NCBI GenBank assembly: GCA_964017235.1
Contig: OZ024928.1
Location: 86,547,566-86,611,565, forward strand
Direction of reading: 5' to 3'
Source: Sabellastarte sp. h YS-2021
Lineage: Eukaryota > Annelida > Polychaeta > Sabellida > Sabellidae
DNA: 64,000 nucleotides
Within the stretch, counting starts at the first letter, position 1. Every line of letters starts with the position of its first letter. Positions 11,454 to 55,644 of the stretch are shown here, one piece after another. Both the position numbers and the translations under genes were made by a program. Under the pieces are notes generated by a model. The model had not been told where the DNA came from and ran no database searches. It worked only from the letters and a program-made list of their open reading frames with translations.

Positions 11454-11908
11454 CTTATCAAAGAATCAACTAGCAAGAACCTGTGAGTGTGGCCTCAATG
11501 GTCATTCCAGTACTGGCTCTAGACAAATCTCTCAAGGAGGGTGAATCATTTTGGCCAATCAGAGCCTTCCGTTATTATGTGAACAAAACAAATGTCCTGG
11601 GGGACAACAAGGAACTTGTTTTTGCCTCATTTAATGAAGAAAATGATTTATTTCTGCTTGGATCGAATGCTCCAATGTTACCATATGTCTGATCAGAATC
11701 CTTGACCTTGCACCAGATCTAAGCTCGTAATGTTAAAACCTTTGCTTCTTCTGAGACCTTGCAAGGGAGGAGGGGAGGTCTCCTTAGAGCTGATTCTCTC
11801 AGCCTGCTATTGGAAGTCCCAGATCACCTTCACACAGTTTGACTTGACGAATATGGCCTATGGTTTGGCCTGACTGAACCTTCTGGTCCTGTGGTTGCTG
11901 CCCAGCGT
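11454..11908 (+). pseudogene. DIRS tyrosine recombinase remnant, copy 2
   Basis: Duplicate of 9817-10271, carrying only the C-terminal part of the recombinase (LDKSLKEGESFWPIRAF onward). The start is an internal breakpoint, not a gene start. Confidence 0.8.
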
Positions 11909-16916: not shown

Positions 16917-17137
16917 TTATTAATCCTAGAGGTTTTGGGATGTGAAATCAAACTATAGGAAATCACGGGCTGGGAATCTTTTGGTGTGGTCAGATTTGAC
17001 CTTGGGCCCCTCCTTCACGGTCAAATGAAGATAGCTAAATTTAAAAGTGCTTATAACTCGCTTATTATTGGTCCTAGAGGTTTGGGATGTGAAATCAAAC
17101 TATAGGAAATCATGGGTTAGGAATCTTCTGATTTTGT
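16917..17137 (+). repeat. A-type tandem array (outer, right part)
   Basis: Continues the array cut at 15132; about 1.5 units, ending at GAATCTTCTGATTTTGT where DIRS element 1 begins. The flank beyond that element (23359 on) is not A-type, so the pre-insertion site cannot be rebuilt here. Confidence 0.75.
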
Positions 17138-17166
17138 AAATTTAATAGTAAATTAAATTTTTATAA

Positions 17167-17348
17167 GTTAATACCCTATCCAATGGACAATTGCTTTACC
17201 GGTCAGCGCGACCGGTCCCGCCAAACGACAGAAAAAGTCATTCTGGATAAATACCGGCAGGACCGGTCACAGTGTGTACGTTCGCCAGGTGTCGCCTCAT
17301 GCATACTTCCTGTCTAGTCAGAATGACGTCATGGCGTCTTTTTCGTTG
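17167..17348 (+). repeat. Element 1 terminal inverted repeat, left (3' end of element)
   Basis: Runs from GTTAATACCCTATCC to GGCGTCTTTTTCGTT and pairs with 23163-23345. Five or six small differences from its partner (for example GGATAAATA here, GTATAAATA there). Contains repeated ACCGGT palindromes. The outermost 29 bp (17138-17166) are not part of the repeat but are copied in the ICR. Confidence 0.9.
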
Positions 17349-17407
17349 TCTAGACCTAGTAAGACCCCTAGTAAGCTGATAGCGGGGCCGGCTGGGAGGG
17401 CCTTGTC

Positions 17408-17503
17408 TGTCCATTGGATAGGGTATTAACTTATAAAAATTTAATTTACTATTAAATTTGCAATTTTATTGCGTTAATACATCCTATCCAATGGACAATT
17501 GCT
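17408..17503 (+). repeat. Internal complementary region (ICR), element 1
   Basis: 17408-17459 is the reverse complement of the left extremity (17138-17189); 17460-17503 is the reverse complement of the right extremity (23315-23358). The two halves abut exactly, so the ICR is a copy of the joined ends. In the DIRS1 model it templates completion of the ends and circle formation. Confidence 0.9.
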
Positions 17504-17681
17504 GAATAACTACCGCTTGGTTGGCGGGTAAGTTACTAGGGACTATATTGTAACTCATGCTGGAGTATTTGAAAAGACTTTTAATTATTATTAAGCCTGG
17601 GCAGACCTTGAGGTCAATGCTCCGAAGGCTCTGGTCGAATATCATCATCCGGTTCTAAGCCTGAACCGTCAGTCGACCTTG

Positions 17682-17695
17682 CCCCCCCCCCCCCC
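17682..17695 (-). repeat. G-tract in 3' noncoding region of element 1
   Basis: Fourteen C on the plus strand followed by six T, so sense reads A-run then G-run. It lies between the recombinase stop and the ICR, as does the 24-base tract at 45569-45592 in element 2. Confidence 0.7.
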
Positions 17696-17820
17696 TTTTT
17701 TAAACAGACCTGCTCTGAGGTAGGGGAAGAGAGGGATGAGTTCAGTCCCAAGGCACAATTTCTCAGATGAAGCATGCCAGAAGATTTTTTTTGTTTTTTT
17801 TGTACAGTGATGTCTCCTCC

Positions 17821-20800
17821 TTATAGGGCTTGTTGATGGACCTGCTGAGCAGCCACTATAGGCCCTAAGTGAAAAAGCTCTGAATCAGCCCAGGCAACAT
17901 CCTTCAGGTAAAATTGTGTGAAGGTGTTGTGAGATTTCCAGTGACAAGCTGACAAAATCTGATCTAAAGAAATTCCAGACTGGAAGGCTTTAGAAGCAGC
18001 AAAGGACCTTACATCATGAGCCTTCACTTGATGTAAGGTAAGGGCTTGTTGGTCAGAGAGTTCATAGCATAGGATTACAGTCTGTTTGATCCAGGAGGAG
18101 ACGGTGGCAGGAGAGATGTCCTTGTCAAAACCTTTCTTGAAAGAGACAAAGACCAATTCTTTGTTCTGCCTGAGGTCTGAGGTTCTATCCAGATAGTATC
18201 GTAAGGCCCTGACTGGACAGAGAGACCTATCACCTTTAAGTGACTTATCCAAGGTGGGAGCCAAGGCTGGGATCACCACCGGGGCCACACTATCTGGGCC
18301 CTCCCTAGCCAGCTGGTTCTTAGATAAGAAGCTGGGGGAAGGGTACAGGGACACCTTTGACCAATCTGACTGGTGTCTAATGTTCTTGTGTAGCCAAGCA
18401 TGAATCTCACTCCTCCTTTTACCAGAACCTAGGGCCATCAGAAAAACAGTCTTAAAGGTTAAGTGTTTTAAGGAGGCCTCTTTCAAAGGTTCAAAGGGCG
18501 CTTTTGTCAGCTGGTGGAGGACCAGAGACAGGTTCCAGGAGGGTATGCCTCTCCGACCTTTTGGTCTGTCTCTGTGGAAACTGTAAAATAGACGAGTGAG
18601 ATTCTCATCTTTGCTGATATTAACTGGAACATTGCCCAGTTTGTCAGCAATGGCTGATCTGTAGCCATCAATAGTGCCTGGTTGCAACTTCTTGTCCTGG
18701 AACAAATGCAGGAGGAAGTCAGCAATCGCTGTTAAAGGTGGTGCCCCGAAGTCCACCTCATTACTGAGGCACCACTTTGTAAAAATGGTCCACTTTGCCT
18801 CATAGACAGATCTGGTTGATCTTCTTTGAGGAGCCTCAATTCGTGCTGCCACTGCCTCAGAGAAGCCTTGCTCCTTGATTGCTGAGGCTCTAGGAGCCAG
18901 GCATGTAGGTTCAGATTCGACAGGTTCCTGTGAAGGACCTGGTTGAATGGCTGAGACACTAGGTTGGGTATGCTGGGCAGACATAGTGGGATCTGGCTTG
19001 ACATTGCTACCAGGTCCCAAAACCAGGGCATGTTGGGCCACCCTGGAGCAATCAGAATTATTCTGTTGCAGGGGTAGTCCTGGAGCTTCTCCACCACGAT
19101 GGCCCAAGATGGCTGCCGGTGGGAAGGCGTATGGGTCCAGGTCCTCCCAGGAGAGGCTGAGTGCATCCACTGCCCAAGCCCGGGGATCTGGGACCGGTGA
19201 GACAAACTGAGGAAGTTTGTTGTTGAATCTGGTGGCAAACAGGTCCACTTGTGGTTGGTGCCACCGGTTGCATAGAGCTTTGAACACTTCTGGGTGAAGC
19301 GACCACTCTGTTTGAATAGTTTGGCCAAGCCTGGATAGCTTGTCTGCTATCACGTTCAACCGGCCGGGGATGTGACATGCCCTGAGGGTTACTTGTTGCC
19401 TGGTGCACCAGGACAGTATTCTCCACAGTAGGGCACACAGTGAGCCCGACTTCATCCCCCCTTCTTTGTTGATGTAAGCAACCACTGTTGTGTTGTCTGT
19501 AGCTATCAACACTGTCTTGTTGCAGACGAGGGTTCGAAAGTCTTTTAAAGCTAGGAATACTGCTTTTAGCTCTAACTGGTTTATGTGTAGTTTGCTCTCT
19601 GGGAGGGACCAGGTTCCTCTTGCAGTGTGCTCGTCTAAGTGAGCGCCCCACCCTTCTTTTGATGCGTCTGTAAAGATTTGCAGAGCATGTTTTAGAGGGT
19701 GTAAAGGTTGACCTAGTAGCACATTGCCTTCCTCCAGCCACCACCTTAGATGAGGGTGGAGGGACTTGGGAACCGGGATAACCTTTTCCAGAGACTCTGG
19801 GACCCTCCAGTTGTTTTTCAAGTGCCACTGTATGGGTCTCATGTGTAGTCTCCCTAAGTGAACCTGTTTTTCTGTTGCTGTGAGGAGACCAATGAGGGAC
19901 ATGAACTGTCGAACCGGACAAACCGGACCGGACAGAATTGACTGGATTTTGTCCGTCAGGGCAAGCCAGCGTTCCTGGGTAGGTCTGACTCTGCCCTCTT
20001 CCAAATCGAACTGGTAACCTACGAAATTGAAAATCTGCTTGGGTTCCAGCTCTGATTTCTCTTCGTTTACCAGCCATCCCAGGTCTTTGCAGAGTGTCAT
20101 TAATTTTTGTGTGTGTTGAAGGCAGACCTGGGGAGACTTGGCTATGACCAACCAGTCGTCGAGGTACTGGTGGATCCTTATACCCCGTCTCAAGGCTAGC
20201 CATTTTACTTCTTTGGCTATCATTGTAAATTCTCTGGGGGCTGTGGACAGGCCAAAGGGTAAAGCCTTGAACTGATAAGCCTTGTCTTGGATTGAAAACG
20301 CATGTACTTCCGGGATTGGCTGTTTATAGGGACATGGAAATACGCGTCTTTGAAATCTACTGAAGTCACCCACTCCCCTGCTTGGAGGGAGGTGCGAATT
20401 GTTTCCGGGGTCTCCATTTTGAAGGTTTGGGTCTTCAGAAATCTGTTCAAGTTGCTCAGATCCAAGATTGGCCGCCACCGGTTGTTGGGCTTGGGTACAA
20501 GGAACAACCGGTTGTAAAAACCCAGAGATTTTTGGTTTTGGACCAGCTCCACAGCATTTTTGTTTAACAGCTGATGCAATGCCTCCAACAGGTAGCTGTT
20601 CCTGTGGGGATCTACATAACAGCTTGTTATTGTCGGTTCTCTTGTGAGGTGAGGTCTGGACCGGAATGGCAGAACGTAACCCTCTCTTAGGACTGAAACC
20701 ACTCTGGGGTTTACGTTCAGTGCAGCCCATTTTTCCCAAAAAAGGTGCAATCTTGAACCTACAGGAAGATTTGGTGCAACAAGTGGGACATTTGTAACAT

Positions 20801-21039
20801 TGTGGACAGAACTCAACTGATCTACACAGGAAACATTTTTCACAGACTTTATTAACATTTGATGATCGGGCATTACGTCTTTCTTTTGCGACGACCCTTC
20901 TGCAAAAAGAACATGATTGGCAACATGACATAATACAGGAAAATGAGTTCTTTTGTCCCAACAACAGTTCTCTCCGGCCACTTTTGAGTCTGTAATAACA
21001 CCTGACACAGAAGTCCCTATCTGACCCTTTACAACACAA
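17821..21039 (-). CDS. Element 1 YR-frame protein: Cys-rich domain, RT/RNase H segment, tyrosine recombinase (1072 codons)
   Basis: The frame is in phase with gag and open from the gag UGA (21046-21048); the first usable codon is TTG, so independent initiation is doubtful. Residues about 35-95: Cys-rich domain (MSCCQSCSFC, CEKCFLC, CPQCYKCPTCC). Residues about 250-640: because of a one-base loss near 20290 and a one-base gain near 19104, this frame carries RT from KAYQFKALPFGLS through YLDD and all of RNase H (FTDAS, ELKAVF, ATDNT, HIPGRLN) up to YAFPP. C-terminal 347 residues: tyrosine recombinase with Arg (SGKRRSE, about R875), HDVR (about H1008/R1011), ACHW (about H1033) and nucleophile Tyr in FTQFY (about Y1044). 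The recombinase would integrate circular cDNA in the nucleus. In element 2, RT and YR stay in separate frames, so the joined arrangement here is probably accidental. Confidence 0.85.
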   Translation of the reverse strand: MCCKGSDRDFCVRCYYRLKSGRRELLLGQKNSFSCIMSCCQSCSFCRRVVAKERRNARSSNVNKVCEKCFLCRSVEFCPQCYKCPTCCTKSSCRFKIAPFLGKMGCTERKPQSGFSPKRGLRSAIPVQTSPHKRTDNNKLLCRSPQEQLPVGGIASAVKQKCCGAGPKPKISGFLQPVVPCTQAQQPVAANLGSEQLEQISEDPNLQNGDPGNNSHLPPSRGVGDFSRFQRRVFPCPYKQPIPEVHAFSIQDKAYQFKALPFGLSTAPREFTMIAKEVKWLALRRGIRIHQYLDDWLVIAKSPQVCLQHTQKLMTLCKDLGWLVNEEKSELEPKQIFNFVGYQFDLEEGRVRPTQERWLALTDKIQSILSGPVCPVRQFMSLIGLLTATEKQVHLGRLHMRPIQWHLKNNWRVPESLEKVIPVPKSLHPHLRWWLEEGNVLLGQPLHPLKHALQIFTDASKEGWGAHLDEHTARGTWSLPESKLHINQLELKAVFLALKDFRTLVCNKTVLIATDNTTVVAYINKEGGMKSGSLCALLWRILSWCTRQQVTLRACHIPGRLNVIADKLSRLGQTIQTEWSLHPEVFKALCNRWHQPQVDLFATRFNNKLPQFVSPVPDPRAWAVDALSLSWEDLDPYAFPPAAILGHRGGEAPGLPLQQNNSDCSRVAQHALVLGPGSNVKPDPTMSAQHTQPSVSAIQPGPSQEPVESEPTCLAPRASAIKEQGFSEAVAARIEAPQRRSTRSVYEAKWTIFTKWCLSNEVDFGAPPLTAIADFLLHLFQDKKLQPGTIDGYRSAIADKLGNVPVNISKDENLTRLFYSFHRDRPKGRRGIPSWNLSLVLHQLTKAPFEPLKEASLKHLTFKTVFLMALGSGKRRSEIHAWLHKNIRHQSDWSKVSLYPSPSFLSKNQLAREGPDSVAPVVIPALAPTLDKSLKGDRSLCPVRALRYYLDRTSDLRQNKELVFVSFKKGFDKDISPATVSSWIKQTVILCYELSDQQALTLHQVKAHDVRSFAASKAFQSGISLDQILSACHWKSHNTFTQFYLKDVAWADSELFHLGPIVAAQQVHQQAL
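18732..19105 (-). pseudogene. Element 1 RT-frame 3' end (methyltransferase-like tail)
   Basis: After the one-base gain in the CCC run at 19103-19105, the RT product returns to its original frame and reads IILIAPGWPNMPWFWDLV, then LNLHAWLLEPQ, to a stop at 18732. In element 2 this is continuous with RNase H. The IAPGWP/MPWF part corresponds to the second half of the Dam-like methyltransferase domain of DIRS1 elements. It overlaps the recombinase start by about 130 nt. Confidence 0.75.
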
Positions 21040-21308
21040 TAACTGTCATTTATATTGCTTCTGTGTCTTGGCAGGTCGCTGAGAGAAAGAGGAGGCCTTG
21101 CCCCTGTTAGATCTGTTACCCCGGCGTCTAAGCTGCTTCCAAGCTGGAAGGGTAGACGATTGCTCAGAACGTTGGTGGCTTTGCTTTGTAGACTGAGCAT
21201 AAGGGTGGTAACGTGATGTCTTTCTTGCCGGACCGGGAGTACGCTTGTCCTCAAAATGGCGTATCTCCTCTTCAGCTTTTGCAATAATATGGTCTGGAAA
21301 CAGTGCAC
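20220..21308 (-). pseudogene. Element 1 RT-frame 5' part (reverse transcriptase fingers to motif A)
   Basis: The RT frame, +1 relative to the YR frame, overlaps the last 260 nt of gag and has no ATG at its beginning (first start-like codon is GTG at 21308). Conserved DIRS RT begins with RLHLFWEKWAAL and NPRVVSVLREGYVLPF; then FYNRLFLVPKPNNRWRPIL, FKMETPETIR and motif A SVDFKDAYFHVPI. After KYMRF near 20290 one base is missing relative to element 2 and translation runs into unrelated residues; the true continuation (KAYQFKALPFG, YLDD) is in the YR frame. Not functional without a frame change. Confidence 0.85.
21040..21048 (-). promoter_or_regulatory. Candidate stop-codon readthrough site after gag (element 1)
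   Basis: Sense strand reads AAA UGA CAG UUA. CARYYA directly after a stop is the well-known type I readthrough context. The downstream frame stays open for 1073 codons. Element 2 has UGA CAA UUA at the same position. Confidence 0.6.
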
Positions 21309-22620
21309 TCATGTGAAGTGGGGCAGACCTGAGTGCCATGAGGGTATCCTGCTTGATGCCGGACCGGACAAAATCTAGGTAACTGTCTCTCCTAGCTAAA
21401 GACAAGTTGGCCACATTAACAAAAACACCATCGGAAAGATCTTGCATGGTGCGAGCCATTGCCTGTGTGATAGATCTATTGAAGGTGACCAAAAAATCCA
21501 GTTCATCAGCCGCCTGGGTGAGTTTAGGTGAAGACTTTCCCTTAACCGTAATACCCTGGATCACTTTCAATTGGTTTGTCATGTTCTCTTGGACCTTAGT
21601 CAGGCAACGACTGAATGCTGCTGCTTGGTTGCACATATACGTCTGGTCCCGTGCAGCCCGTTCCCACTTCCTCAGTGTGTCCTGTGACACCGGACGAGAA
21701 GCTGGAGCAGAAGGGAGAGAACGACTAGCTATCCTTGGAAAACTGCTATTAAGACGAGCAGGTTCACTGGTCCAGGTGTACACCTTGGAGCGGGAAAAGT
21801 CTTTCTTCTCACTATGCATTCCGTACCACTTCAAGGTTCTAGGTGGCTTAATGAACTGATCTTTACTGAGTCCGGCAGTTTCTGTAGTACGAGTGGGGTA
21901 TCCCTCTTGTAAGGTCACATAGAGTTTCTCAACCTTGCGACATAGCCACTCATCTACTGGTACTTTAACAGAGATTTTCCCAGTCTGTGCTGTTTTGGTA
22001 CCGGTGAAGGGATTATCATCTTGAGATGAAGAGGCTGAGTCGAATTCTGGGATGTCGGTCCAGGCCATGAAAGACCTAACTCCCCTTAGAGTCTCCCGGT
22101 AACTTTGTTCAGCAGAAAGTTCTTGATCACCCTCAATTCCTTCCTGTCCTTGAATAGATTCCCGGTCAGACAATTCCCCTTCGTCCGGTGAAAGATATGA
22201 AGGGTCACTGGCAAGTTCTTGTTCCGGCTCTTCAACAGGAACTGTAGGACCAGTAGAGATGGTACCGGGAGTAACAGGCAATACCGGTGAATGTAGCTGA
22301 GGTTTATCACCGGAGGTGGGTGAGACGACAGGTTCCTGGTCAGCTGGAAGATTTTCTGTGTCGGTACCGGGGGCCTCAACAGGCTGGGTAGCTGACACGT
22401 CTTCTGGATTCATAAGCTGGCTGCCAGGCAGGACACCGGAAACCTCAGGAGGCTGAGAAACTTTCTTAGTCTTCTTGTGACCGGTGGACTTCTTCTGCTG
22501 CTGAATAGAGGTGGAAGCAGCAGTTGGAGGAATAAAGGGTCTGTCTGTAACCGGAGCATCACTTTTATTGACCGGTTCTACTGGAACTGAGAAGCTTTTT
22601 GCCAGGAAAAGGGCTTCCAA
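21046..22620 (-). CDS. Element 1 Gag, central and C-terminal part (524 codons)
   Basis: Structural (nucleocapsid-like) protein. Aligns along its length with residues about 160-687 of element 2 Gag: shared RSFMAWTDIPEF, VPVDEWLCRKVEKL, AEGYP/QEGYP, DQFIKPP, YGMHSEK, ANLSLARRDSYLDFVR and LFPDHIIAKAEEEI. Begins at TTG, because the true start lies in the upstream piece (23051-22650), separated by a one-base frame break. C-terminus is basic and Arg/Ser-rich (RRRGNRSNRGK), suiting RNA binding. Stop is UGA at 21046-21048. Confidence 0.8.
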   Translation of the reverse strand: MEALFLAKSFSVPVEPVNKSDAPVTDRPFIPPTAASTSIQQQKKSTGHKKTKKVSQPPEVSGVLPGSQLMNPEDVSATQPVEAPGTDTENLPADQEPVVSPTSGDKPQLHSPVLPVTPGTISTGPTVPVEEPEQELASDPSYLSPDEGELSDRESIQGQEGIEGDQELSAEQSYRETLRGVRSFMAWTDIPEFDSASSSQDDNPFTGTKTAQTGKISVKVPVDEWLCRKVEKLYVTLQEGYPTRTTETAGLSKDQFIKPPRTLKWYGMHSEKKDFSRSKVYTWTSEPARLNSSFPRIASRSLPSAPASRPVSQDTLRKWERAARDQTYMCNQAAAFSRCLTKVQENMTNQLKVIQGITVKGKSSPKLTQAADELDFLVTFNRSITQAMARTMQDLSDGVFVNVANLSLARRDSYLDFVRSGIKQDTLMALRSAPLHMSALFPDHIIAKAEEEIRHFEDKRTPGPARKTSRYHPYAQSTKQSHQRSEQSSTLPAWKQLRRRGNRSNRGKASSFSQRPAKTQKQYK

Positions 22621-22649
22621 CCTGGAAAACCTTTCAGACCACTTGTCGT

Positions 22650-23051
22650 CTAGTGACTGTAGTTCAGTTTGAAGCTCTGAAGATTTGCTGGATTTTTTCT
22701 TAAGGGGAGATTTGTGAGAGACTTCTTTTGTTTCTTAGGTGTAGATTCGCCTCTATCACTGGGGCTCTCACCCTTGTTCTCGACCCTACCCAGAACTGTA
22801 ACATCAGAGGCAGCAATGTGGGTGGGGGAGGGATTTTTCTTCTGGCCAGATTCCTTACGTTCTCTATACTTTGGAGTGGCCAACTGCGTCTTCTGAGCTT
22901 CTGTGAAACTATCACAAATGGAGCATGGTTTCTTTGCTACACAATCGTCCCCTCCAATCCCTTTCTCACGACAGCGAGCACACTTGGTATGAAGATCAAA
23001 TAGGGCCATAACGTGCCCGTACGAGCCTCTACGTTGGCCAGGGGAAGACAT
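22650..23051 (-). CDS. Element 1 Gag, N-terminal zinc-binding part
   Basis: ATG at 23051 is chosen because MSSPGQRRGSYGHVM aligns with the ATG start of element 2 Gag (MDSPGEKKGQRRGSCGHIM). A Cys cluster follows (KCARCREKGIGGDDC, PCSICDSF), a probable zinc-binding domain conserved in element 2. The frame then closes at 22650. The break to the main Gag frame falls at or near the A6 run at 22693-22698; sense A AAA AAT there also fits a -1 slippery heptamer leading into the Gag frame. Since element 2 Gag is one frame, a lost base is more likely than programmed shifting. Confidence 0.8.
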   Translation of the reverse strand: MSSPGQRRGSYGHVMALFDLHTKCARCREKGIGGDDCVAKKPCSICDSFTEAQKTQLATPKYRERKESGQKKNPSPTHIAASDVTVLGRVENKGESPSDRGESTPKKQKKSLTNLPLRKNPANLQSFKLNYSH

Positions 23052-23162
23052 ATTGCTCCAAGAATAAGTAGAAATAAAACACGTTGACAAAAAAGTGATA
23101 GTCTTTGTAAAATATAAACTTCTTTAACACTGCAGGAAACACGTCCGTACACACTGAGCGCC

Positions 23163-23345
23163 AAACGAAAAAGACGCCATGACGTCATTCTGACTAGACA
23201 GGAAGTATGCATGAGGCGACACCTGGCAAACGTACACACTGTGACCGGTCCTGCCGGTATTTATACAGAATGACTTTTTCCTCGTTTGGCGGGACCGGTC
23301 GCGCCGACCGGTAAAGCAATTGTCCATTGGATAGGATGTATTAAC
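23163..23345 (-). repeat. Element 1 terminal inverted repeat, right (5' end of element)
   Basis: Reverse complement of 17167-17348 with a few substitutions. The outer extension through TTAACGCAATAAAATTGC (to 23358) is unique to this end and copied in the ICR. Confidence 0.9.
23261..23270 (-). promoter_or_regulatory. Possible TATA box of element 1
   Basis: Sense TATAAATACC in the 5' terminal repeat, about 210 bp upstream of the Gag ATG. The 3' repeat has GATAAATACC instead, so only the 5' copy keeps a canonical TATA. Element 2 lacks it; promoter role is inference. Confidence 0.35.
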
Positions 23346-23435
23346 GCAATAAAATTGCTATGTTTGGGGATACACCGCCGGCTCGCAATAAAGGGAGCTG
23401 CATAAGTCTAGTTTTACTTCTTTGCAGTTTGATTT

Positions 23436-44720: not shown

Positions 44721-45074
44721 ATTATGCAATCAGCTACAAGTCTGATATTTTACTATGTTATAGCTGAAAGAAAAATAGATGAAAAACATATTTAACAAAA
44801 TGTTCTAAATGCAATACTTTTAAAGTTATAACTGATTTACTGCATGAACTCATGAATTTTAATGCATGAAAAATTATTTTAAAAAATCATAAAAAATTAT
44901 GAAAGATCCAGGCCTGATACTCACATCAGGGAAGTTACTTATGGCCTAGTACATATATGCAAGATAAATGGGAAATCCCTGCAATAGTCAAAGAGAAAAT
45001 TGTGATAAAGTGTTGAAATTTTCACACTTTGGCTGTGGGGTACCTCTCTTCTAATGGCTCTAGCAAACAGACAA
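44721..45074 (+). repeat. Composite-element tail into which element 2 inserted (left part)
   Basis: One C unit, then the tail (GGCCTAGTACATATATGCAA, GTGATAAAGTGTTGAAATTT) to CTCTAGCAAACAGACAAAA. Continues at 51458. Confidence 0.75.
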
Positions 45075-45108
45075 AATGGAAAATTTAATAGTAAATTAAA
45101 TTTTTATA

Positions 45109-45299
45109 AGTTAATACCTTACCTAGTGGACAGATGCATTTGTCCGGCGCCTTGCCGGTCACGCCAAACGTTAGAAAAAAACGTCCTGAGCTGGGCTCTG
45201 GCCGGGACCGGTAGTGTCCTGTTCATTCGCCAGGTGGCTGTATAGCCAACCTGCTGGTATACTGCGCATGCTCGCGCATGCGCTCTTCCTCTTTTTGTT
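45109..45299 (+). repeat. Element 2 terminal inverted repeat, left (3' end)
   Basis: From GTTAATACCTTACCTAG to CCTCTTTTTGTT; pairs with 51257-51446 without mismatch over about 170 bp inside the first few bases. Contains GCGCATGC-tc-GCGCATGCGC and ACCGGT palindromes. Outer AAATTTAATAG segment lies only at this end. Confidence 0.93.
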
Positions 45300-45359
45300 G
45301 TCTACCTATGAATTTCCCCTTATACTAGAATAGCGGGGCAGGTAGGGTGGGAATCCCCT

Positions 45360-45455
45360 TGTCCACTAGGTAAGGTATTAACTTATAAAAATTTAATTTA
45401 CTATTAAATTTTCCATTTTATTGCGTTAATACATCTTACCTAGTGGACAGATGCA
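45360..45455 (+). repeat. Internal complementary region, element 2
   Basis: First half reverse-complements the left extremity, second half the right extremity, 96 bp, the same length as in element 1. The junction (CTATTAAATTTTCCATTTTATTG, split at TTCC) keeps four bases, TGGA on the sense side, that match the left end. Confidence 0.9.
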
Positions 45456-45568
45456 GAATAACTACCCAGTGGAAGGAGGGTAGCAGAAGAAGGGGAATTC
45501 CTGAGAACTCTAGATACTAAGGGGTGATTCCAGCCATGGTTAAATAAACCAGTCCTTAGGAAAAAACA

Positions 45569-45592
45569 CCCCCCCCCCCCCCCCCCCCCCCC
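45569..45592 (-). repeat. G-tract in 3' noncoding region of element 2
   Basis: 24 C on the plus strand; sense reads AAAAA then G24. Same place as 17682-17695 in element 1. Flanked in both by a similar purine-rich stretch containing GATGAGTTCA. Exact length is uncertain in any assembly. Confidence 0.75.
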
Positions 45593-45794
45593 TTTTTGTT
45601 GAAATTTCCTTGTACCAACTCAACCGAGGGTACAGAGGGAAGGGGAGAGATGAGTTCATCACGTGGTGAGGAAGACGAACAGGAACTGAAAAACCTAATA
45701 ATTCCCTGGAACCACTTAGGCTCGTGATAATCCAGGGGAAAAACTTATTTATGAAATTATGTACACTATATACAATAAAGCCCAAAGAGGGACT

Positions 45795-48700
45795 TTATTT
45801 GTCCGCCTGGACCTGTTGGGCAGCCACAATGGGCCCCAGATGGTACAGGTCCGAGTCGGCCCAAGCTAGGTCCTTCAGATAGAACTGAGTAAAGGTATTG
45901 TGGGCTTTCCAATGACAGGCCGAGAGAATTTGTTCCAAGGACACGCCTCCCTGAAAAGCCTTGGAAGCCGCAAAAGCCCTGACATCATGTGCCTTGACTT
46001 GAAGCAACTTGTGGGAATCCTCATCGGATACTTGGTAGCACAAGAGCACTGTTTGTTTAATCCAAGAGGAGATAGTAGCCGGGACAATATCTTTCTCAAA
46101 GCTCTTCCGGAAGGACACAAAAACCAGATCCTTCCCTTTGCGGAGATCCTTGGTTCTGTCTAGATAGTAACGCAGGGCCCTGACTGGGCACAATGACCTA
46201 TCCTCCTTAAGCTCTTTGTCCAAGGAGGGTGCCAAGGCCGGGATCACTACTGGAGCCACAGATGCCGGGCCTTCTTTGGCCAACTGATTCTTGGAAAGAA
46301 ACATGGGAGACGGATAGAAAGACACCTGACTCCAGTTTTCTTGGTGCCGTATATTCTTGAATAGCCAAGCATGAATTTCACTTCTACGCTTGCCTGAACC
46401 TAGAGCTAGAAGAAAAACTGTCTTAAAGGTCAGATGCTTAAGGGAAGCTTTCCTCATTGGTTCAAAAGGAGGTTTAGTCAACTGGTGAAGAACAAGGGAA
46501 AGATTCCAAGAAGGCAGACCTCGTCTGCCCTTGGGCTTATCCCTATGAAAACTGTCCAATAAACGGGTTAAGTTTTCATCTTTGCTGATGTTCACCTCCT
46601 GGTTTCCCACCATGTCCGCAATAGCAGTTCTGTAACCGTCAATGGTGCTAGGCTGGAGTTTCCTTTCCTTGAATAGATAGAGCAGGAAATCAGCGATCTG
46701 GCTCACAGAGGGCGACCGGAAGTCCACCTTATGTGCGTCACACCATTTGATAAAAATGGCCCACTTTGACTTGTAAACGGCTCTGGTTGAACTTCTCTGA
46801 GGAGCCTCAATTCTTGCTGCCACTTCATCAGTGAACCCTTGTTCTTGAATGCAGGAGGCTCTAGGAGCCACGCATGTAGATTTAAGTTGGCTAGGTTCTT
46901 GTGAAGAAGGCCATTGAGAGGCTGAGTCACGAGATCCTTGCGGAGGGGGAGCTGGAAAGGAATTTGCACGGACAGATTGACCAGATCCCAAAACCAAGGC
47001 ATGTTGGGCCAACCTGGGGCAATTAGGACCATCCTTAAGCATCCCTGATCCATTACCTTCGACGTCACCTGATTGAGCAGTGAGACCGGAGGAAAGGCGT
47101 AAACATCCAGGTTCCCCCATGGTATGCTGAGGGCGTCCACAGCCCAGGCTGCCGGATCCGGCACCGGTGACACAAACTGGGGAAGTTTGTGGTTGAACCG
47201 GGTTGCAAAGAGGTCCACCTGTGGGAGGTCCCAGTTGGAGAACAAGAGATTGAACACTGGTAGGGACAGGGACCATTCTGTCTGAATTACCTGACTGTGC
47301 CTGGATAGTTTGTCCGCTATCGCATTCAGGCGACCCGGAATGTGCCTTGCCCTCAGGACTATTCCTCTGGGATGGCACCAAGCCAGAAGTCTCCACAGGA
47401 GGGCACAGAGAGAGCCTGATCTCATACCTCCTTGCTTGTTGATGTAGGCAACCACAGTTGTGTTGTCTGTGGCTATGAGAACAACCTGATCCCTGCAGAG
47501 ATGTTCGAAACTCTTGAGGGCCAGAAAGACTGCTTTCAGCTCTAGAAAGTTTATATGGAGGTGACTTTCTGGTTCTGACCAAACGCCTTGTGCTATAGCC
47601 TCTCCTAAGTGAGCGCCCCAACCTTCGTTTGAGGCGTCTGTAAAAACTTGTAGAGCGTGACGTAGGGCATGTAGAGGTTGCCCTCGCAGTACATTCTTTT
47701 CGTCCAACCACCAATCCAGATGGGGGTGCAGGGACGGGGGAACCGGAATCACTTTTTCCAGGACCTCCGGTACATGCCAATGCTGTTTGAGATGCCACTG
47801 AATTGGTCTCATGCGGAGGCGACCCAGCCAGACTTGCTTCTCTGTGGCTGTCAAGAGACCTATGAGGGACATAAACTGCCTGACCGTGCAGGAGTCCCTG
47901 TTCTTTACAAAGAGAAGTTTCGCCTTTAATGTCTCCCAGCGCTCTGACGTGGGCAGAACCCGTCCCGTCAGGAGATCGAACCGGTAGCCTACGAAATTGA
48001 ACACTTGCTGGGGTACCAGTTCTGACTTCTCCAAGTTGACCACCCAACCTAATTCGCGGCAGAGGGCCAAGAGGGTCTGGGTATTTCGTTGGCAGGTTTC
48101 CGGGCACGGGGCTCTGAGCAACCAGTCGTCTAGGTACTGGTGGATTCTTATACCCTTTGTTTGAGCCAACAATTTCACCTCCTTTACCACTTTGGTAAAT
48201 TCCAACGGAGCCGTGGCTAGTCCGAATGGAAGGGCTGTGAACTGATATGCCTTGCTGTTCAAAAAGAACCTGAGGTATTTTCTGGATCTGGGATGGATGG
48301 GGATATGAAAGTAAGCGTCGCTGAAATCCAGTGACGTGACCCATTCCCCTTTTTGTAAGGAGACCCTTATGGTTTCCGGTGTTTCCATCTTGAAAGTGTT
48401 TGTTTGGAGATAAAGGTTTAACTGGCTGAGGTCCAAAATGGGTCTCCACTTTTTGTTGGGTTTTGGGACCAAGAACAACCGGTTGTAAAAGGACAGGGAG
48501 GTCCGTACAACCACCTTTTCGACTACCAACTTTTTCCTTAGTGCAACCAAGGCCTCTGACAGAGCCCGGCTTCTTACCGGATTTGCATAACCACTTGTGA
48601 TGAGAGGAAACCGTGTCAAGGGGGGCCTCATTTTGAACGGTAGAGCATAACCCTCCTTCAAAATGGAGACTACCCTGGGATTTGCCCCTAGTTCTTGCCA

Positions 48701-48911
48701 CTTTGGCCAAAAGGTCTGTAGTCTCCCCCCTACACCCCACTCTTTGACAACATTGGGGACATTTGGAACAGGTTTGGCAGAAAGACAATGATTTACAAAA
48801 GAAGCACCTTTGACAAGCTTTATTTCTGTCTTTTTCACCACGGGTCTTATACCTTTCTTTTGCGGAAGCCCTTTTGAAATTGCATACTGAGCATGAGTTG
48901 CAACATGACAA
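45795..48911 (-). CDS. Element 2 YR-frame protein: Cys-rich domain, linker, tyrosine recombinase (1038 codons)
   Basis: First start-like codon is TTG (48911), but the frame is open 57 codons further, back to the gag UGA at 49080-49082, and is in phase with gag. Residues 1-60: Cys-rich domain (SCCNSCSVC, CQRCFFCKSLSFC, CSKCPQCC) with Cys positions conserved in element 1. Residues about 100-690: overlap the RT gene in another frame; Ser/Arg/Pro-rich and poorly conserved, so probably a dual-coded linker. Residues 693-1038: recombinase with EAARIEAPQR-type N-terminal helices, Arg in SGKRRSE (about R842), HDVR (H975/R978), ACHW (H1000/W1001) and Tyr nucleophile in FTQFY (Y1011). All catalytic positions present. 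Integrates circular cDNA. Confidence 0.9.
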   Translation of the reverse strand: MSCCNSCSVCNFKRASAKERYKTRGEKDRNKACQRCFFCKSLSFCQTCSKCPQCCQRVGCRGETTDLLAKVARTRGKSQGSLHFEGGLCSTVQNEAPLDTVSSHHKWLCKSGKKPGSVRGLGCTKEKVGSRKGGCTDLPVLLQPVVLGPKTQQKVETHFGPQPVKPLSPNKHFQDGNTGNHKGLLTKRGMGHVTGFQRRLLSYPHPSQIQKIPQVLFEQQGISVHSPSIRTSHGSVGIYQSGKGGEIVGSNKGYKNPPVPRRLVAQSPVPGNLPTKYPDPLGPLPRIRLGGQLGEVRTGTPASVQFRRLPVRSPDGTGSAHVRALGDIKGETSLCKEQGLLHGQAVYVPHRSLDSHREASLAGSPPHETNSVASQTALACTGGPGKSDSGSPVPAPPSGLVVGRKECTARATSTCPTSRSTSFYRRLKRRLGRSLRRGYSTRRLVRTRKSPPYKLSRAESSLSGPQEFRTSLQGSGCSHSHRQHNCGCLHQQARRYEIRLSLCPPVETSGLVPSQRNSPEGKAHSGSPECDSGQTIQAQSGNSDRMVPVPTSVQSLVLQLGPPTGGPLCNPVQPQTSPVCVTGAGSGSLGCGRPQHTMGEPGCLRLSSGLTAQSGDVEGNGSGMLKDGPNCPRLAQHALVLGSGQSVRANSFPAPPPQGSRDSASQWPSSQEPSQLKSTCVAPRASCIQEQGFTDEVAARIEAPQRSSTRAVYKSKWAIFIKWCDAHKVDFRSPSVSQIADFLLYLFKERKLQPSTIDGYRTAIADMVGNQEVNISKDENLTRLLDSFHRDKPKGRRGLPSWNLSLVLHQLTKPPFEPMRKASLKHLTFKTVFLLALGSGKRRSEIHAWLFKNIRHQENWSQVSFYPSPMFLSKNQLAKEGPASVAPVVIPALAPSLDKELKEDRSLCPVRALRYYLDRTKDLRKGKDLVFVSFRKSFEKDIVPATISSWIKQTVLLCYQVSDEDSHKLLQVKAHDVRAFAASKAFQGGVSLEQILSACHWKAHNTFTQFYLKDLAWADSDLYHLGPIVAAQQVQADK

Positions 48912-49276
48912 GATACAAGAGGATTTGAAGGTTTTGGAACAGTGTTTAAAGAAGGAACTTTGACTACTGTCTGAACATTTAAACTGTCCTGAACCACTGG
49001 TTGTACAGTTTGCTTTACTAACGTTGACGTCCTCCCCACACTTACTGATTTCTGAATGGGAGGAAACATGCTGTAATTGTCATTTAAAACCTTTATATCC
49101 CTTGGAACGAGAGAAACGAGGGTTAGAACCTCTTCCTCTGCCACGTCCTCTATTCCTAGGCCTACTAAATTGCCTCCATGGTTGTTGTTCTTGTTCCGTA
49201 CCGGTAGATCTTTGATCCCTTCTGTCATAAGGCCGGTATCTGTTGGCTGTCCTCCAACCGGACTGCTGTGAAGCAC
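46703..49276 (-). CDS. Element 2 reverse transcriptase-RNase H-methyltransferase-like protein (857 codons)
   Basis: Frame is +1 relative to gag/YR, overlaps the last 197 nt of gag, and opens with GTG, not ATG; start unknown. RT about residues 184-440: GGRLQTFWPKW, NPRVVSILKEGY, FYNRLFLVPKPN, motif A LDFSDAYF (316-323), FGLATAPLEF, YLDD (381-384), FVGY. RNase H about 540-660: FTDAS (545), ELKAVF (579), ATDNT (602), HIPGRLNAIADKLSR (645-659). Methyltransferase-like about 685-765: QVDLFATRFN, DALSIPW, YAFPP (726, in place of the usual NPPY-type box), LIAPGWPNMPWF (751). The Dam-like domain is known from DIRS1-group elements. C-terminus overlaps the recombinase start by about 130 nt. Copies element RNA into cDNA. 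Confidence 0.92.
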   Translation of the reverse strand: MLHSSPVGGQPTDTGLMTEGIKDLPVRNKNNNHGGNLVGLGIEDVAEEEVLTLVSLVPRDIKVLNDNYSMFPPIQKSVSVGRTSTLVKQTVQPVVQDSLNVQTVVKVPSLNTVPKPSNPLVSCHVATHAQYAISKGLPQKKGIRPVVKKTEIKLVKGASFVNHCLSAKPVPNVPNVVKEWGVGGRLQTFWPKWQELGANPRVVSILKEGYALPFKMRPPLTRFPLITSGYANPVRSRALSEALVALRKKLVVEKVVVRTSLSFYNRLFLVPKPNKKWRPILDLSQLNLYLQTNTFKMETPETIRVSLQKGEWVTSLDFSDAYFHIPIHPRSRKYLRFFLNSKAYQFTALPFGLATAPLEFTKVVKEVKLLAQTKGIRIHQYLDDWLLRAPCPETCQRNTQTLLALCRELGWVVNLEKSELVPQQVFNFVGYRFDLLTGRVLPTSERWETLKAKLLFVKNRDSCTVRQFMSLIGLLTATEKQVWLGRLRMRPIQWHLKQHWHVPEVLEKVIPVPPSLHPHLDWWLDEKNVLRGQPLHALRHALQVFTDASNEGWGAHLGEAIAQGVWSEPESHLHINFLELKAVFLALKSFEHLCRDQVVLIATDNTTVVAYINKQGGMRSGSLCALLWRLLAWCHPRGIVLRARHIPGRLNAIADKLSRHSQVIQTEWSLSLPVFNLLFSNWDLPQVDLFATRFNHKLPQFVSPVPDPAAWAVDALSIPWGNLDVYAFPPVSLLNQVTSKVMDQGCLRMVLIAPGWPNMPWFWDLVNLSVQIPFQLPLRKDLVTQPLNGLLHKNLANLNLHAWLLEPPAFKNKGSLMKWQQELRLLREVQPEPFTSQSGPFLSNGVTHIRWTSGRPL
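49074..49082 (-). promoter_or_regulatory. Candidate stop-codon readthrough site after gag (element 2)
   Basis: Sense AAA UGA CAA UUA: stop followed by CAA-UUA, which fits CARYYA exactly. The frame then runs open for over 1090 codons into the recombinase. Conserved with element 1 although surrounding sequence has diverged. Confidence 0.65.
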
Positions 49277-51143
49277 CCGGACCGGGTCTCAGAGCAGTAC
49301 CGGAAGCCTCATGCTTGATGATATCCTGTTCAGCAGTGGCAATGACTGCGTCGGGAAAGAGGCCATAGCCAAACATTGGAGCATTTCTAAGATGTAACCA
49401 TGTATCTTGCTTGACACCAGGCTTCATATGTTCTAGATAAGCATCACGTCGGATCAAGATAAGATTAGCAAGATGCACAAAAACACTGTCCGCGAGATGT
49501 TGCAAAGCCGTGCCCATGGCAACAGAGACACTTTGGTGAAAAGCCATAAGATCCCTGAGGTCGTTCAGGGCACCAGACACTTCCTTAGGGGCTTTGCCCT
49601 TGTTGATGCGGGAACATAACATGGCAACATTACTAGACATTTTATCTTGCAACTCACTAGCGCACCGGTTGAACCCTGCAGCATTGTTAATGATATATGA
49701 GTTCTCTCTAGCGCACTTCTCCCACCTTCTGAGGTATTCCTGGGAAATGGGCCTAGAAGGAGGGCCTGCAGCTGGATAGGCCGAAGCCTTAGTAAGCCTT
49801 GGAAACTGGGAATTAAGTTTCGCTTCTGTATTATGCCAACTGAAGAGTTTTCTACCCGGTCTGTGGGGGCCATCTTGTTTAATGGTATACATCTGATACC
49901 ATCTTGCCTGTGACTTGGGGATCTTCACAAACTGGTCTTTTTTCAGTCCGGCCGAGTCTTGGGCCCTTGAAGGGTAGCCTTCTGCCACAACTGTATTGAG
50001 TCGCTCCAACTTCTGGCAGAGCCAGTCATCCGGCGGCATTTCAACTGAAATACGGGCAGGCCTTTTAGGATTCTTACCCTTCCAAGGGTTATTGGATTTA
50101 TCCGGCTCATTCAAGTCACTTTCAAAGTCCGGTATGTGAGTCCACCCCATGAAGGAACGAACCGACCTTACAGTTTCTCTGTAGTTCATCTCTTCGGTTT
50201 GTTCTGGTTGTTCCAGAGTATCAGAGGAAATCTCACCCTCGTCAGAGCCAGAGTGCACAGACGACACATCAGAACCGGCCAAAGGGTCATCAAAATCAAT
50301 GTCGTCCGGTTCCGGTGGAAGATTGAATGTACCGGGGAAAACAGAAGCTGAAGATGATGTTGAAGACTTAGCCAAAAACCGGTCACCAGCAGAACCGGCT
50401 TGGTCATCTTCCGGTGTAAGGGTGACTGAAGATGCCGGAGGAGCTTTCTTCTGTACTGTAGCCTGCGTTACACTCTCCGGACCGGAGGTGCCCAAAGCAG
50501 GGACCGGCTTATCCAAGGAAACCGGTTTATCAGCTATTTTGACTGACTTCTTATGTTTTTTGTCTTTAGCTTTCTTAGGTTTATCCTCCCCAGATTTAAC
50601 AACGGCCTCCTGCACTGCCGGGGACTCCACCGGACCGGTGGGCCGGGCAGCCGGGGCAATAAAGGGGGAATCAGAAGGCACAGCTTTTGAACTTGAAGGG
50701 TTCACCGCCATCTTGGGGGTGGAGAAAACATTGCCTCTACTCAACAAGGCTTCTACACGTGCAAATTGCTCTGCCCATTTATCATTCATCAGAGAAAACT
50801 GTTCTGCTGTAACAAAAGTGGCAGGTTGAGATGTACTCTGAGGAGGGGCAGTAAAAGTTGGCTCCGCAGAAGAATCCACGGAAGCAATGACTTCAACTTC
50901 TTTAGGGGAAACTAAAATACCTGCTTTACGGTCTTTTCTGATTCTGTAAGAAGGGGTAGAAATCAACTCCTTTTGTTCATCAGAGAAGGAATCGCACACA
51001 CTACACTGTTTGTCTTTAACACAAGGGTCATCCCCAATGCCTTTATCGCGACAACGCGCGCATTTCTTGTGCAAATCAAAGGCGGCCATAATGTGGCCAC
51101 AAGAGCCCCGCCTTTGTCCTTTCTTTTCCCCTGGTGAATCCAT
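49080..51143 (-). CDS. Element 2 Gag (687 codons)
   Basis: Starts at ATG 51143, shortly after the terminal repeat; aligns with the element 1 start. Residues 10-52: Cys/His cluster (SCGHIMAAFDLHKKCARC, DDPCVKDKQCSVC), a probable zinc-binding domain shared with element 1. Residues about 150-330: acidic/Pro/Ser-rich, poorly conserved. Residues about 335-620: conserved capsid-like block (RSFMGWTHIPDFES, PPDDWLCQKLERLN, HLANLILIRRDAYLEHMKPG, LFPDAVIATAEQDI). C-terminus RG-rich (PRNRGRGRGRGSNPRF), typical of RNA-binding tails. Expected to package element RNA. Ends in UGA at the putative readthrough site. Confidence 0.88.
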   Translation of the reverse strand: MDSPGEKKGQRRGSCGHIMAAFDLHKKCARCRDKGIGDDPCVKDKQCSVCDSFSDEQKELISTPSYRIRKDRKAGILVSPKEVEVIASVDSSAEPTFTAPPQSTSQPATFVTAEQFSLMNDKWAEQFARVEALLSRGNVFSTPKMAVNPSSSKAVPSDSPFIAPAARPTGPVESPAVQEAVVKSGEDKPKKAKDKKHKKSVKIADKPVSLDKPVPALGTSGPESVTQATVQKKAPPASSVTLTPEDDQAGSAGDRFLAKSSTSSSASVFPGTFNLPPEPDDIDFDDPLAGSDVSSVHSGSDEGEISSDTLEQPEQTEEMNYRETVRSVRSFMGWTHIPDFESDLNEPDKSNNPWKGKNPKRPARISVEMPPDDWLCQKLERLNTVVAEGYPSRAQDSAGLKKDQFVKIPKSQARWYQMYTIKQDGPHRPGRKLFSWHNTEAKLNSQFPRLTKASAYPAAGPPSRPISQEYLRRWEKCARENSYIINNAAGFNRCASELQDKMSSNVAMLCSRINKGKAPKEVSGALNDLRDLMAFHQSVSVAMGTALQHLADSVFVHLANLILIRRDAYLEHMKPGVKQDTWLHLRNAPMFGYGLFPDAVIATAEQDIIKHEASGTALRPGPGASQQSGWRTANRYRPYDRRDQRSTGTEQEQQPWRQFSRPRNRGRGRGRGSNPRFSRSKGYKGFK

Positions 51144-51256
51144 GATATATATAGCACAACACTACTAACACACTTAAAACAAATATCCAATCTAACACTA
51201 GTAAAAATTAAAAAAGTTTCTCTTAAACTTCAAGCGTTAACAAAATGGACGCGCCA

Positions 51257-51446
51257 AACAAAAAGAGGAAGAGCGCATGCGCGAGCATGCGCAGTATACC
51301 AGCAGGTTGGCTATACAGCCACCTGGCGAATGAACAGGACACTACCGGTCCCGGCCAGAGCCCAGCTCAGGACGTTTTTTTCTAACGTTTGGCGTGACCG
51401 GCAAGGCGCCGGACAAATGCATCTGTCCACTAGGTAAGATGTATTA
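51257..51446 (-). repeat. Element 2 terminal inverted repeat, right (5' end)
   Basis: Reverse complement of 45109-45299. Unique extension TTAACGCAATAAAA ends the element and is copied in the ICR. Must contain the promoter, but I see no canonical TATA in it. Confidence 0.93.
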
Positions 51447-51457
51447 ACGCAATAAAA

Positions 51458-54121: not shown

Positions 54122-55644
54122 TAGAATAGAAACATTTATATAGCGCAAAATTGATGCAACATCCTCTAATGCGCTTGAAATCAAAAAGGGAAAGTCGAGG
54201 GACGTTCGAGGTCATGATCCAAGGTTAGCGCCCGCCAGGGAGATGTACTATGGTGGAGGATATGCTAATCTAAACAAGTAGGTCTTTAGCTGGCTACGGA
54301 AACCTGTTATTGTTTGTTGTGATCGTACTGATTGTGGGAGTCTGTTCCATTCTATGGGGGAAGCCACTACAAAACCTCTCCTACCGATGGCCTTTTTGTG
54401 AGAGGCTGAGGAAAGAGAAAGACGATTTCCACGTGTTAGACAACTGGTTTTGATCAAGGATGATAGGTATATGGGTTGAGAGAAATTTATAGCCTTGAAA
54501 GTAATTAGATTGTACTTAAACAATATACGGTAAGTGATAGGAAGCCAGTGTAGTTTTTGAAGAAAAGGAGTGACATGGCTAGTTCTCTCAAGTCTAAAAA
54601 CAATTCTACAAAGGGCATTTTGTATCTTTTGGAGTTTAGCAACATTGTACTTACTGATGCCATAAAGTAGGGAATTGCAGTAGTCAAGTCGACTACTGAT
54701 CATTGAGTTTGCAAGCAAGGCTGCAGTTTCCACACTGAGGAATTTACGAATACGTCTTAGGTCCTTAAGGTGGTAGTAGCAGGCTCGACACATATTAGTT
54801 ATGTGGTTGGAAAAGGTGTTTCCAGAGTCAAAAATTACACCCAGGTTCTTGACTGTATCAGTAGGGGAAATAGAATTTCCGAGAAGTTGAGTAGGGAATT
54901 TATTAATGAGGGACTCTCTGGCTTGTCTATCACCTATTATAATAAATTCAGTTTTCTCGGGATTGAGTTTCAATTTCACGCCAGCCATCCAGTTTTGGAT
55001 ACATGTGAGACACTCTGTAAGCTCAGCGAAATTGGAATCAAAATTCCTATTGTCCAATGCTAGATATACTTGGGTGTCATCAGCATATAGATGGTGGGTG
55101 ACATTGAAATTGGAAATGATATTACTGAGAGGGGTTGTGTAAAGGGTAAAAAGGAGGGGGCCCAGGACAGAACCCTGAGGCACACCATACGGAAGTGAGA
55201 ACACATCTGAAAAGCTAATTTAACCTTCTGTTTCCGGTTTGAGAGATAGGATCTGATCCACCTCAACACAGTGCCATCAACCCCAAACCAATCTCTTAGG
55301 GAATTAAAAAGAATGTCATGGTCGATAGTGTCGAATGCCGCTGAGAGGTCTAGCAGTGTGAGTGCAACAGCCTTACCAGAGTCCAACGAAGCAGCAATGT
55401 CATTCTGGATTTTCAACAGCGCTGTTTCTGTGGAATGGAGTCTCCTGTAAGCGGATTGGTTGACATTGGAGAGCCCCTCGCTATCGATATAATTATTTAA
55501 CTGTTTGGCAACTACTTTTTCGATCAGTTTGGATAAGAAACTAAGGTTGGATACCGGTCTATAGTTTTTTAGGAGATTTCTGTCTAAGTTTGGTTTCTTG
55601 AGAAGAGGGGTGACATATGCTGTTTTGAAACAGTTTGCGAAACT
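54122..55644 (-). mobile_element. 5'-truncated CR1/L2-like LINE inserted in the satellite
   Basis: The 3' end (54122) carries GCGCTATATAAATG, a tail common in animal LINEs; the 5' end is cut inside the RT domain at 55644. The satellite phase is interrupted at AATTAGCTAT and resumes at CTATGGGTCTG, sharing CTAT, which may be a short target duplication or microhomology. Confidence 0.8.
54248..55640 (-). pseudogene. LINE reverse transcriptase fragment with one frameshift
   Basis: Frame 1 (55640-55205): AYVTPLLKKPNLD, NYRPVSNLSFLSKLIEKVV, SAYRRLHSTETALLKI, LLDLSAAFDTIDHDIL (motif A). Frame 2 (55204-54248): LPYGVPQGSVLGPLLFTLY, LYADDTQVYL (YADD catalytic box), NPEKTEFIIIG, NLGVIFDS, the C-terminal LDYCNSLLYGI, LHWLPITYRI and WNRLPQSVR, then FRSQLKTYLFRLAY and stop. 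The break is one base near the AAAAG run at 55211-55215. Both frames are otherwise free of stops, so this is a fairly young copy. Endonuclease and RT N-terminus are missing: inactive. The clade is a guess from the motif style. Confidence 0.85.

Follow-up and report, generated by a model that had tools for sequence, protein, structure and literature searches.

Long overlaps between the pol and tyrosine recombinase (YR) genes of DIRS retrotransposons are already known (PMC3266345, PMC9210276, PMC5633606), and among DIRS1-like elements they were reported in half of 28 (Piednoel et al. 2011, PMC3266345). That paper contains none of the terms stop codon, read-through, and splic-, and in the portions of the DIRS literature examined we found no explanation of the route by which the overlapping reverse transcriptase (RT) and recombinase frames are expressed. 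In the type I readthrough signals of tobamoviruses and other plant viruses (UAG-CARYYA), the hexamer adjoins the stop codon and the product is a C-terminally extended protein; natural signals of this type are reported generally to use UAG (PMC3542737). UGA followed by CARYYA gave ~15% readthrough in human cells in one context, and readthrough with CARYYA was similar for UGA and UAG and much lower for UAA, with all six bases contributing (PMC4132726). Murine leukaemia virus (UAG with a pseudoknot) and Tca2 (UGA) produce Gag either alone or with an in-phase extension past a single stop (PMC3542737, PMC2194720); the gag-UGA-pol junction of Tca2 alone gave no readthrough in yeast (PMC2194720). At the shifty stops of antizyme (UCC-UGA) and bacterial RF2, UGA occupies the A site behind a fixed P-site codon, and a useful frame lies in +1 (PMC9841425, PMC5009743).

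The gag stop described here shares features with each of these systems. As in the plant-virus signals, CARYYA adjoins the stop and would yield a C-terminally extended protein; here, however, the stop is UGA, the element is a retrotransposon, and a second frame is open from the same stop. As in murine leukaemia virus and Tca2, Gag would be made alone or with an in-phase extension, but the extension is the recombinase, RT lies in +1, and no folding signal was seen. The site has the A-site UGA, fixed P-site codon, and useful +1 frame of the antizyme and RF2 stops and differs from them in that no 3′ folding signal was detected and the 0 frame past the stop is also coding. What appears to be new is a candidate element with readthrough of the gag stop through a type I signal built on UGA, in which the recombinase rather than RT is in phase and a second frame is open from the same stop. 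The original prediction, made from the DNA of this region, suggested that readthrough as an expression route of DIRS elements may be new; among the best matches of the open-access literature searched we found no such description, and older DIRS papers could contain one.

Two DIRS1-like elements in the window

The window is the 64,000-nucleotide stretch of contig OZ024928.1 of Sabellastarte sp. h YS-2021 that was analysed. Both of its elements are DIRS1-like, with inverted terminal repeats, overlapping internal complementary regions, RT/RNase H, and a recombinase; like the elements described in PMC3266345, they also have gag and a pol/YR overlap. Element 2 (e2) comprises the following features.

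45073..51457, minus strand: DIRS element 2; limits approximate, set from the terminal and internal complementary repeats
49080..51143, minus strand: gag, ATG to UGA; homologous to the gag of element 1
49080..49082, minus strand: gag stop UGA, the proposed recoding site
49074..49079, minus strand: CAAUUA, which fits CARYYA (type I readthrough context)
49068..49088, minus strand: conserved nucleotide block around the gag stop, with low column entropy among clusters
48732..48917, minus strand: Cys-rich domain in gag phase, reachable only past the UGA
45795..49079, minus strand: gag-phase frame after the UGA, 1094 codons, ending in UAA
45798..46943, minus strand: tyrosine recombinase region, with weak Pfam matches; back in gag phase
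46703..49288, minus strand: RT/RNase H frame, in +1 with respect to gag; stays open where gag terminates

The terminal inverted repeats of e2 (45118-45299 and 51257-51438) are 182 nt long and 100% identical, and its internal complementary arms (45360-45419 and 45416-45455) share 4 nt where they overlap. Past the UGA, the gag-phase frame runs through the Cys-rich region, a stretch overlapping RT, and the tyrosine recombinase, in that order. The RT frame matched the Pfam families RVT_1 (E 6e-23) and RT_RNaseH (E 5.5e-5; 23.7 bits, slightly below the cut-off of 24.8), and no Pfam match to a methyltransferase-like domain was found after RNase H at E 0.05. Matches in the recombinase were weak: Phage_int_SAM_4 at E 1.2e-4, Phage_int_SAM_1 at E 1.3e-4 (22.6 bits against a cut-off of 22.3), and Phage_integrase at E 0.0045 (17.2 bits, below 27.1). 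This region is 75-78% identical to six other copies.

Element 1 (e1) is a broken copy with the following features.

17134..23358, minus strand: DIRS element 1, broken copy; limits approximate
21046..23051, minus strand: gag, its frame broken between about 22735 and 22806
21040..21048, minus strand: UGA CAGUUA
20728..20940, minus strand: Cys-rich domain in gag phase
17821..21045, minus strand: frame after the UGA, open by position; from one indel (about 20298) to the next (about 19097) it runs through RT

Its terminal repeats (17231-17347 and 23164-23280) are 98% identical, and its internal arms (17408-17463 and 17460-17503) have the same arrangement as those of e2. An indel near 20295-20300 brings RT into the gag-phase frame, and another near 19097 takes it out again. 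Across the RT stretch, the recombinase phase forms a separate open frame (20323-19058), so the absence of stops in the YR phase still holds despite the indels.

Both gag stops had been predicted to lie in a stop+CARYYA context, and they do: the minus strand reads AAA TGA CAA TTA at 49085-49074 in e2 and AAA TGA CAG TTA at 21051-21040 in e1. The recombinase is in gag phase as claimed, but the offsets given for it (2232 and 1581 nt) were not reproduced. A frame open for more than 1000 codons was found in e2 (1094 codons to the recombinase), whereas the 1074-codon frame of e1 passes through RT by way of the indels. Similarly, the reported lack of a nearby ATG applies to e2 (none for 245 codons) but not to e1, in which a frame-0 AUG occurs at codon 39 after the UGA. 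The original prediction overlooked that the RT frame is open in +1 from the same UGA and that e1 is broken.

In both elements the N terminus of Gag has a conserved cysteine cluster of its own (51143-50931 in e2 and 23051-22806 in e1). The window also contains a relic of a third, older DIRS lineage (8090-10227 and 11444-11864), in which a stretch with the recombinase end recurs 1,637 bases on; two minus-strand frames of 241 codons (10662-11387 and 12299-13024) share this spacing. Decay has left no junction to be seen in this relic (about 8.1-10.2 kb). From 55643 to 64000, the window end, the sequence is a tandem satellite array with repeats of about 133 bases and self-similarity of about 94-96%.

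Conservation of the gag stop junction

Copies were collected by searches of the same genome (1.79 Gb), taking the 150 best-scored matches of each. Several families were recovered, and the matches listed run from 100% down to about 51-57% identity to the queries. All copies behind the conservation evidence come from this one genome; RT and YR queries of viral contigs and an RT query of genome contigs returned no relatives outside it. The junction set consisted of 77 sequences: e1, e2, L009-L038 (L010 is e2, which is thus counted twice), and L043-L087.

UGA+CARYYA is kept in 74 of the 77 junction sequences (e2 counted twice); two others have the hexamer around a mutated stop, and one is a relic without a recognizable junction. 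We also made a tally in which the motif was not used, recording the nearest in-frame stop upstream of the Cys-rich hit in the 76 loci that have such a hit. By this count UGA+CARYYA was found in 66 loci, including L063, which lacks one A before the UGA; the association is not a product of chance. Among the other ten, L043 (UAA) and L056 (CGA) have a mutated stop inside an otherwise intact motif; seven (L044, L058, L065, L069, L077, L084, and L085) have an intact motif upstream, with an indel or an extra stop between; and in L052, whose first element carries the motif, the Cys-rich hit used belongs to a second partial element. The relic L059 has neither a Cys-rich hit nor the motif. A comparison of gag 3′ ends among many copies had been proposed as a check on the prediction, and within this genome UGA, CARYYA, and phase proved to be conserved far above most neighbouring sites. 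In L056, the change of the gag UGA to CGA (motif region about 2450-2470) makes gag and the Cys-rich frame a single frame; L083-L087, retrieved as relatives of L056, retain UGA.

At 85%, 68 loci formed 19 clusters, and the most distant partner of each cluster is 53-58% identical to it over the junction. Across the 12 positions from -3 to +8, the 19 cluster representatives vary only at +5 (A/G), at +7 (T/C), and in the stop of one UAA copy, the other 18 having UGA. Bar that stop, the sole variable positions of the hexamer are therefore the degenerate R and Y places of CARYYA. The block reads TAY-AAA-UGA-CAR-UYA-YUG in most clusters and UUU-AAA-UGA-CAA-UUA-CAG in e2. For these representatives, whose loci were found with a pattern already allowing AAA-stop-CARYYA, column entropy was 0-0.74 bits from -6 to +8; of the 51 positions from -30 to +35 outside that span, 40 exceeded 1 bit. 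Low-entropy positions outside the block include a short stretch from -23 to -18 and positions +10, +11, +12, and +14.

At the RT start, e2 is matched at 99-100% identity by about 70 of the 150 listed copies. All 30 copies retrieved from this group carry UGA, which indicates that UGA-bearing elements moved recently. The 100% identity of the e2 terminal repeats, together with these near-identical copies, points to recent activity of the e2 family in its host.

The block TAYAAATGACARTYAYTG occurs at 5,218 places genome-wide, against 1 for the reversed control. These are motif places, whose DIRS identity was checked for part (two of those listed coincide with L050 and L073), and the e2 family, with its slightly different block, falls outside them. 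The corresponding counts were 121 for the UAA/UAG variant (control 8), 109 for a base other than C at +3 (control 12), 41 for AAG in place of AAA (control 0), and 31 for Leu YTG in place of UUA (control 0). UAG was almost absent, making up 5 of the 100 UAA/UAG places listed. The final gag codon is AAA in 19/19 clusters, and the second codon after the stop is UUA in 15/19 and UCA in 4/19. Within gag, Lys AAA and AAG are used in ratios of 30:23 (e2) and 19:24 (e1), and UUA is a rare Leu codon (3/37 in e2). AAG is silent in gag and YTG is silent in the gag-phase frame; both are common in the same genes yet rare at the junction, which argues that the constraint acts on nucleotides. The A at +8 is also required for Tyr/His in the +1 frame, and double coding could hold that single base.

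The fixed hexamer and the rarity of UAA fit the reported behaviour of CARYYA in reporters, where it is strong with UGA and weak with UAA. UAG should serve as well as UGA and yet is almost absent, so that CARYYA may not be the only requirement; the preference might be explained if UGA had a further function, such as +1 shifting. No folding signal was detected 3′ of the UGA in 14 sequences (z -1.4 to +1.5; pseudoknots as such lie outside the model). Type I readthrough signals need no RNA structure.

Coding frames past the gag stop

The Cys-rich domain in gag phase is common to 14 representatives, with 18 invariant columns that include paired Cys, KER, and NK-x-C-x2-CF-x-C-x-S. Over the same stretch in these 14, 12 columns are invariant in the +1 frame, including several where RT begins, and mean pairwise identity is 0.457 in phase 0 and 0.422 in +1. 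The distance from the UGA to the Cys-rich hit is 63-144 nt in unbroken copies. The domain is probably zinc-binding; the region had no match in Pfam or the PDB, and an AlphaFold model made from the two window sequences was poor (mean pLDDT 53). By description it can be likened to the zinc-finger Gag of Pat1, from a related superfamily, where a Cys-type motif is also associated with Gag; there, however, the motif is reported inside Gag itself, and here it follows the gag stop (PMC4157794). Neither a Cys-rich domain past the gag stop nor the UGA-CARUYA junction was found described in the parts of the DIRS literature examined. In one copy, L086, about 66 nt of the Cys-rich region are duplicated in tandem and in phase, with both frames remaining open.

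Beyond this domain, the frame avoids stops throughout its overlap with RT. Over 500 RT codons, the YR phase contains 0-1 stops, against 15.7-20.4 expected, in 16/16 loci (16 of 22 long loci, leaving out e1 and the decayed or junction-less L055-L059), fewer than in every shuffle; the third frame over the same codons contains 32-42. In the window, no stop occurs in the recombinase phase over 544 codons of e2 (about 19 expected) or in the two pieces of e1 (about 4.9 and 13.6 expected). These expectations were obtained by synonymous-codon shuffling that keeps the RT protein, and 0 of 2000 shuffles reached zero stops. The unbroken copies e2, L046, and L049 have 649-693 gag-frame codons, followed by 1063-1094 codons in phase 0 and 763-792 in +1.

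No phase-0 AUG before the Cys-rich domain is common to the families among 14 copies. A conserved coding frame without a family-wide start ahead of this domain supports the original reading of the junction as one under selection for readthrough. Just after the domain, a phase-0 AUG is present in 7/14 copies, which slightly lowered our confidence in readthrough and raised that in a separate start; in such copies, a Cys-less recombinase could be started separately.

RT does not lie in gag phase. It occupies the +1 frame in e2 and, ahead of the indel, in e1; judged by distance, the same holds for 68/73 copies, the interval from the UGA to the RT start being 289-400 nt and 1 mod 3 in all but L013, L044, L055, L058, and L065. 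Between the UGA and RT, no stop interrupts the +1 frame, where 18.0 would be expected (lowest of 4000 simulations, 7), in 13 representatives chosen as open in both frames (11 of the 19 clusters plus the unclustered L083 and L087); with pooled codon usage, 20.1 stops were expected and the lowest simulation had 9. In the eight clusters left out, L013, L052, L065, and L082 have no +1 stop, L055, L057, and L077 have one each, and L058 has eight after an indel. Openness at single loci is weak (P 0.006 to 0.8), and the families are related, so that P values are not independent.

Since the +1 frame is open from the UGA to RT, ribosomes making RT probably enter it at or near the UGA rather than downstream of the Cys-rich domain. 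In six copies, going upstream from the UGA, the first +1 stop is met after 14-65 nt; in four of these, from one cluster, the distance is 44 nt, which bounds +1 entry on the upstream side. Among 14 copies, no RT-frame AUG ahead of RT is common to the clusters, and 5/14 lack one altogether over the stretch from the gag stop to the start of RT. We considered and rejected a further recoding signal where the Cys-rich and RT regions meet: the conserved bases there follow RT codons, and no block is as sharp as that at the UGA. In L047 (C2:7595269-7601630) and L063 (C4:47141146-47141956), an indel seems to put gag in the RT phase, giving one long frame of 1412 and 1754 codons, respectively; these are natural mimics of a +1 shift.

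Proposed recoding at the gag UGA and its alternatives

We consider it likely that the gag UGA is a programmed leaky stop that would give a Gag-Cys-recombinase by readthrough. In this mechanism, most ribosomes would terminate at the UGA and release Gag, and a fraction would insert an amino acid there, the next six bases (CARUYA) weakening termination. Ribosomes that read through would continue in gag phase across the Cys-rich domain, about 550 codons overlapping RT, and the tyrosine recombinase. The recombinase would then be the tail of a Gag-Cys-YR fusion, made at a low ratio to Gag. We infer that ribosomes do read through and that the fusion would be the working form.

Readthrough leaves the +1 RT unexplained and so does not by itself account for the junction. 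A +1 shift at AAA-UGA-C may give access to RT/RNase H at this same site, a proposal that we regard as possible rather than probable. To judge from the sequence, AAA-UGA-C may be a plausible +1 slip site, and the features of a shifty stop are present: a UGA-C stop, a conserved P-site codon, and a useful +1 frame open from the stop. The bacterial RF2 shifty stop is CUU-UGA-C. Equally tentatively, the UGA might serve as a three-way switch, in which termination gives Gag, readthrough gives Gag-Cys-recombinase, and a +1 slip of the P-site AAA gives Gag-RT-RNase H. If so, the relative amounts of coat protein, integrating enzyme, and copying enzyme would be governed by one signal of ~20 bases, with the two enzymes encoded over each other for about 1.6-2 kb, and the site would possibly be a natural case of one stop codon feeding two different frames on purpose. 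Readthrough, if true, would place a UGA form of the plant-virus-type signal in a major retrotransposon class, would define a new, readthrough-only Cys-rich domain, and would offer a concrete answer, drawn from thousands of copies, to how DIRS elements express overlapping genes.

It is unlikely that the site is mainly a +1 shifty stop (AAA-UGA-C) making Gag-RT, with CARYYA slowing termination and the recombinase made in some other way. Such a role would be consistent with the absence of +1 stops between the UGA and RT (0 against 18.0 expected in the 13 representatives), a P-site codon fixed as AAA though AAG is synonymous, the use of UGA with UAG almost absent, and the +1 stop 14-65 nt upstream in six copies, which requires entry near or after it. 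Antizyme reporters point both ways: UGA_C cut termination, raising readthrough as well as +1 shifting, and UGA_CUA favoured readthrough at the expense of shifting, in constructs reported without CARYYA (PMC9841425). A shifty stop, however, leaves the invariant Cys-rich domain and the gag-phase frame open into the recombinase unexplained, and it gives no reason for the full hexamer CARUYA.

Less probable still is a separate start for the recombinase and for RT, whether at internal sites, by reinitiation after gag, or at non-AUG codons. Candidate starts exist: in e2 an AUG is the fifth RT-frame codon after the gag stop, half of the 14 copies have the phase-0 AUG just past the Cys-rich domain, and an AUG overlaps the stop itself (AUGA). 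The first has no RT-frame counterpart common to the clusters, and if translation began downstream of the Cys-rich domain, neither the domain nor the open frame leading into it would be accounted for. Reinitiation at the AUG that overlaps the stop was rejected because the third frame, into which it leads, closes quickly in the 17 copies inspected.

That the UGA is removed by splicing, so that the Cys-YR or RT frame is joined to gag or to a leader in the mRNA, is improbable. The acceptor-like sequence TTCTTTTTGCAG in the Cys region of e1 would suit such an intron but is missing from e2, and splicing gives no cause for a UGA and six following bases fixed across 19 clusters. Least probable of all is an ordinary stop whose block is kept for another RNA or DNA role or by the overlap of two coding frames: the block does encode a conserved DNYC or close variants in +1, so that part of the constraint could be double coding, but the silent changes (AAG in gag and YTG in the gag-phase frame) are found at background level only, and past the block the codons of both frames are variable in sequence as well as in length.
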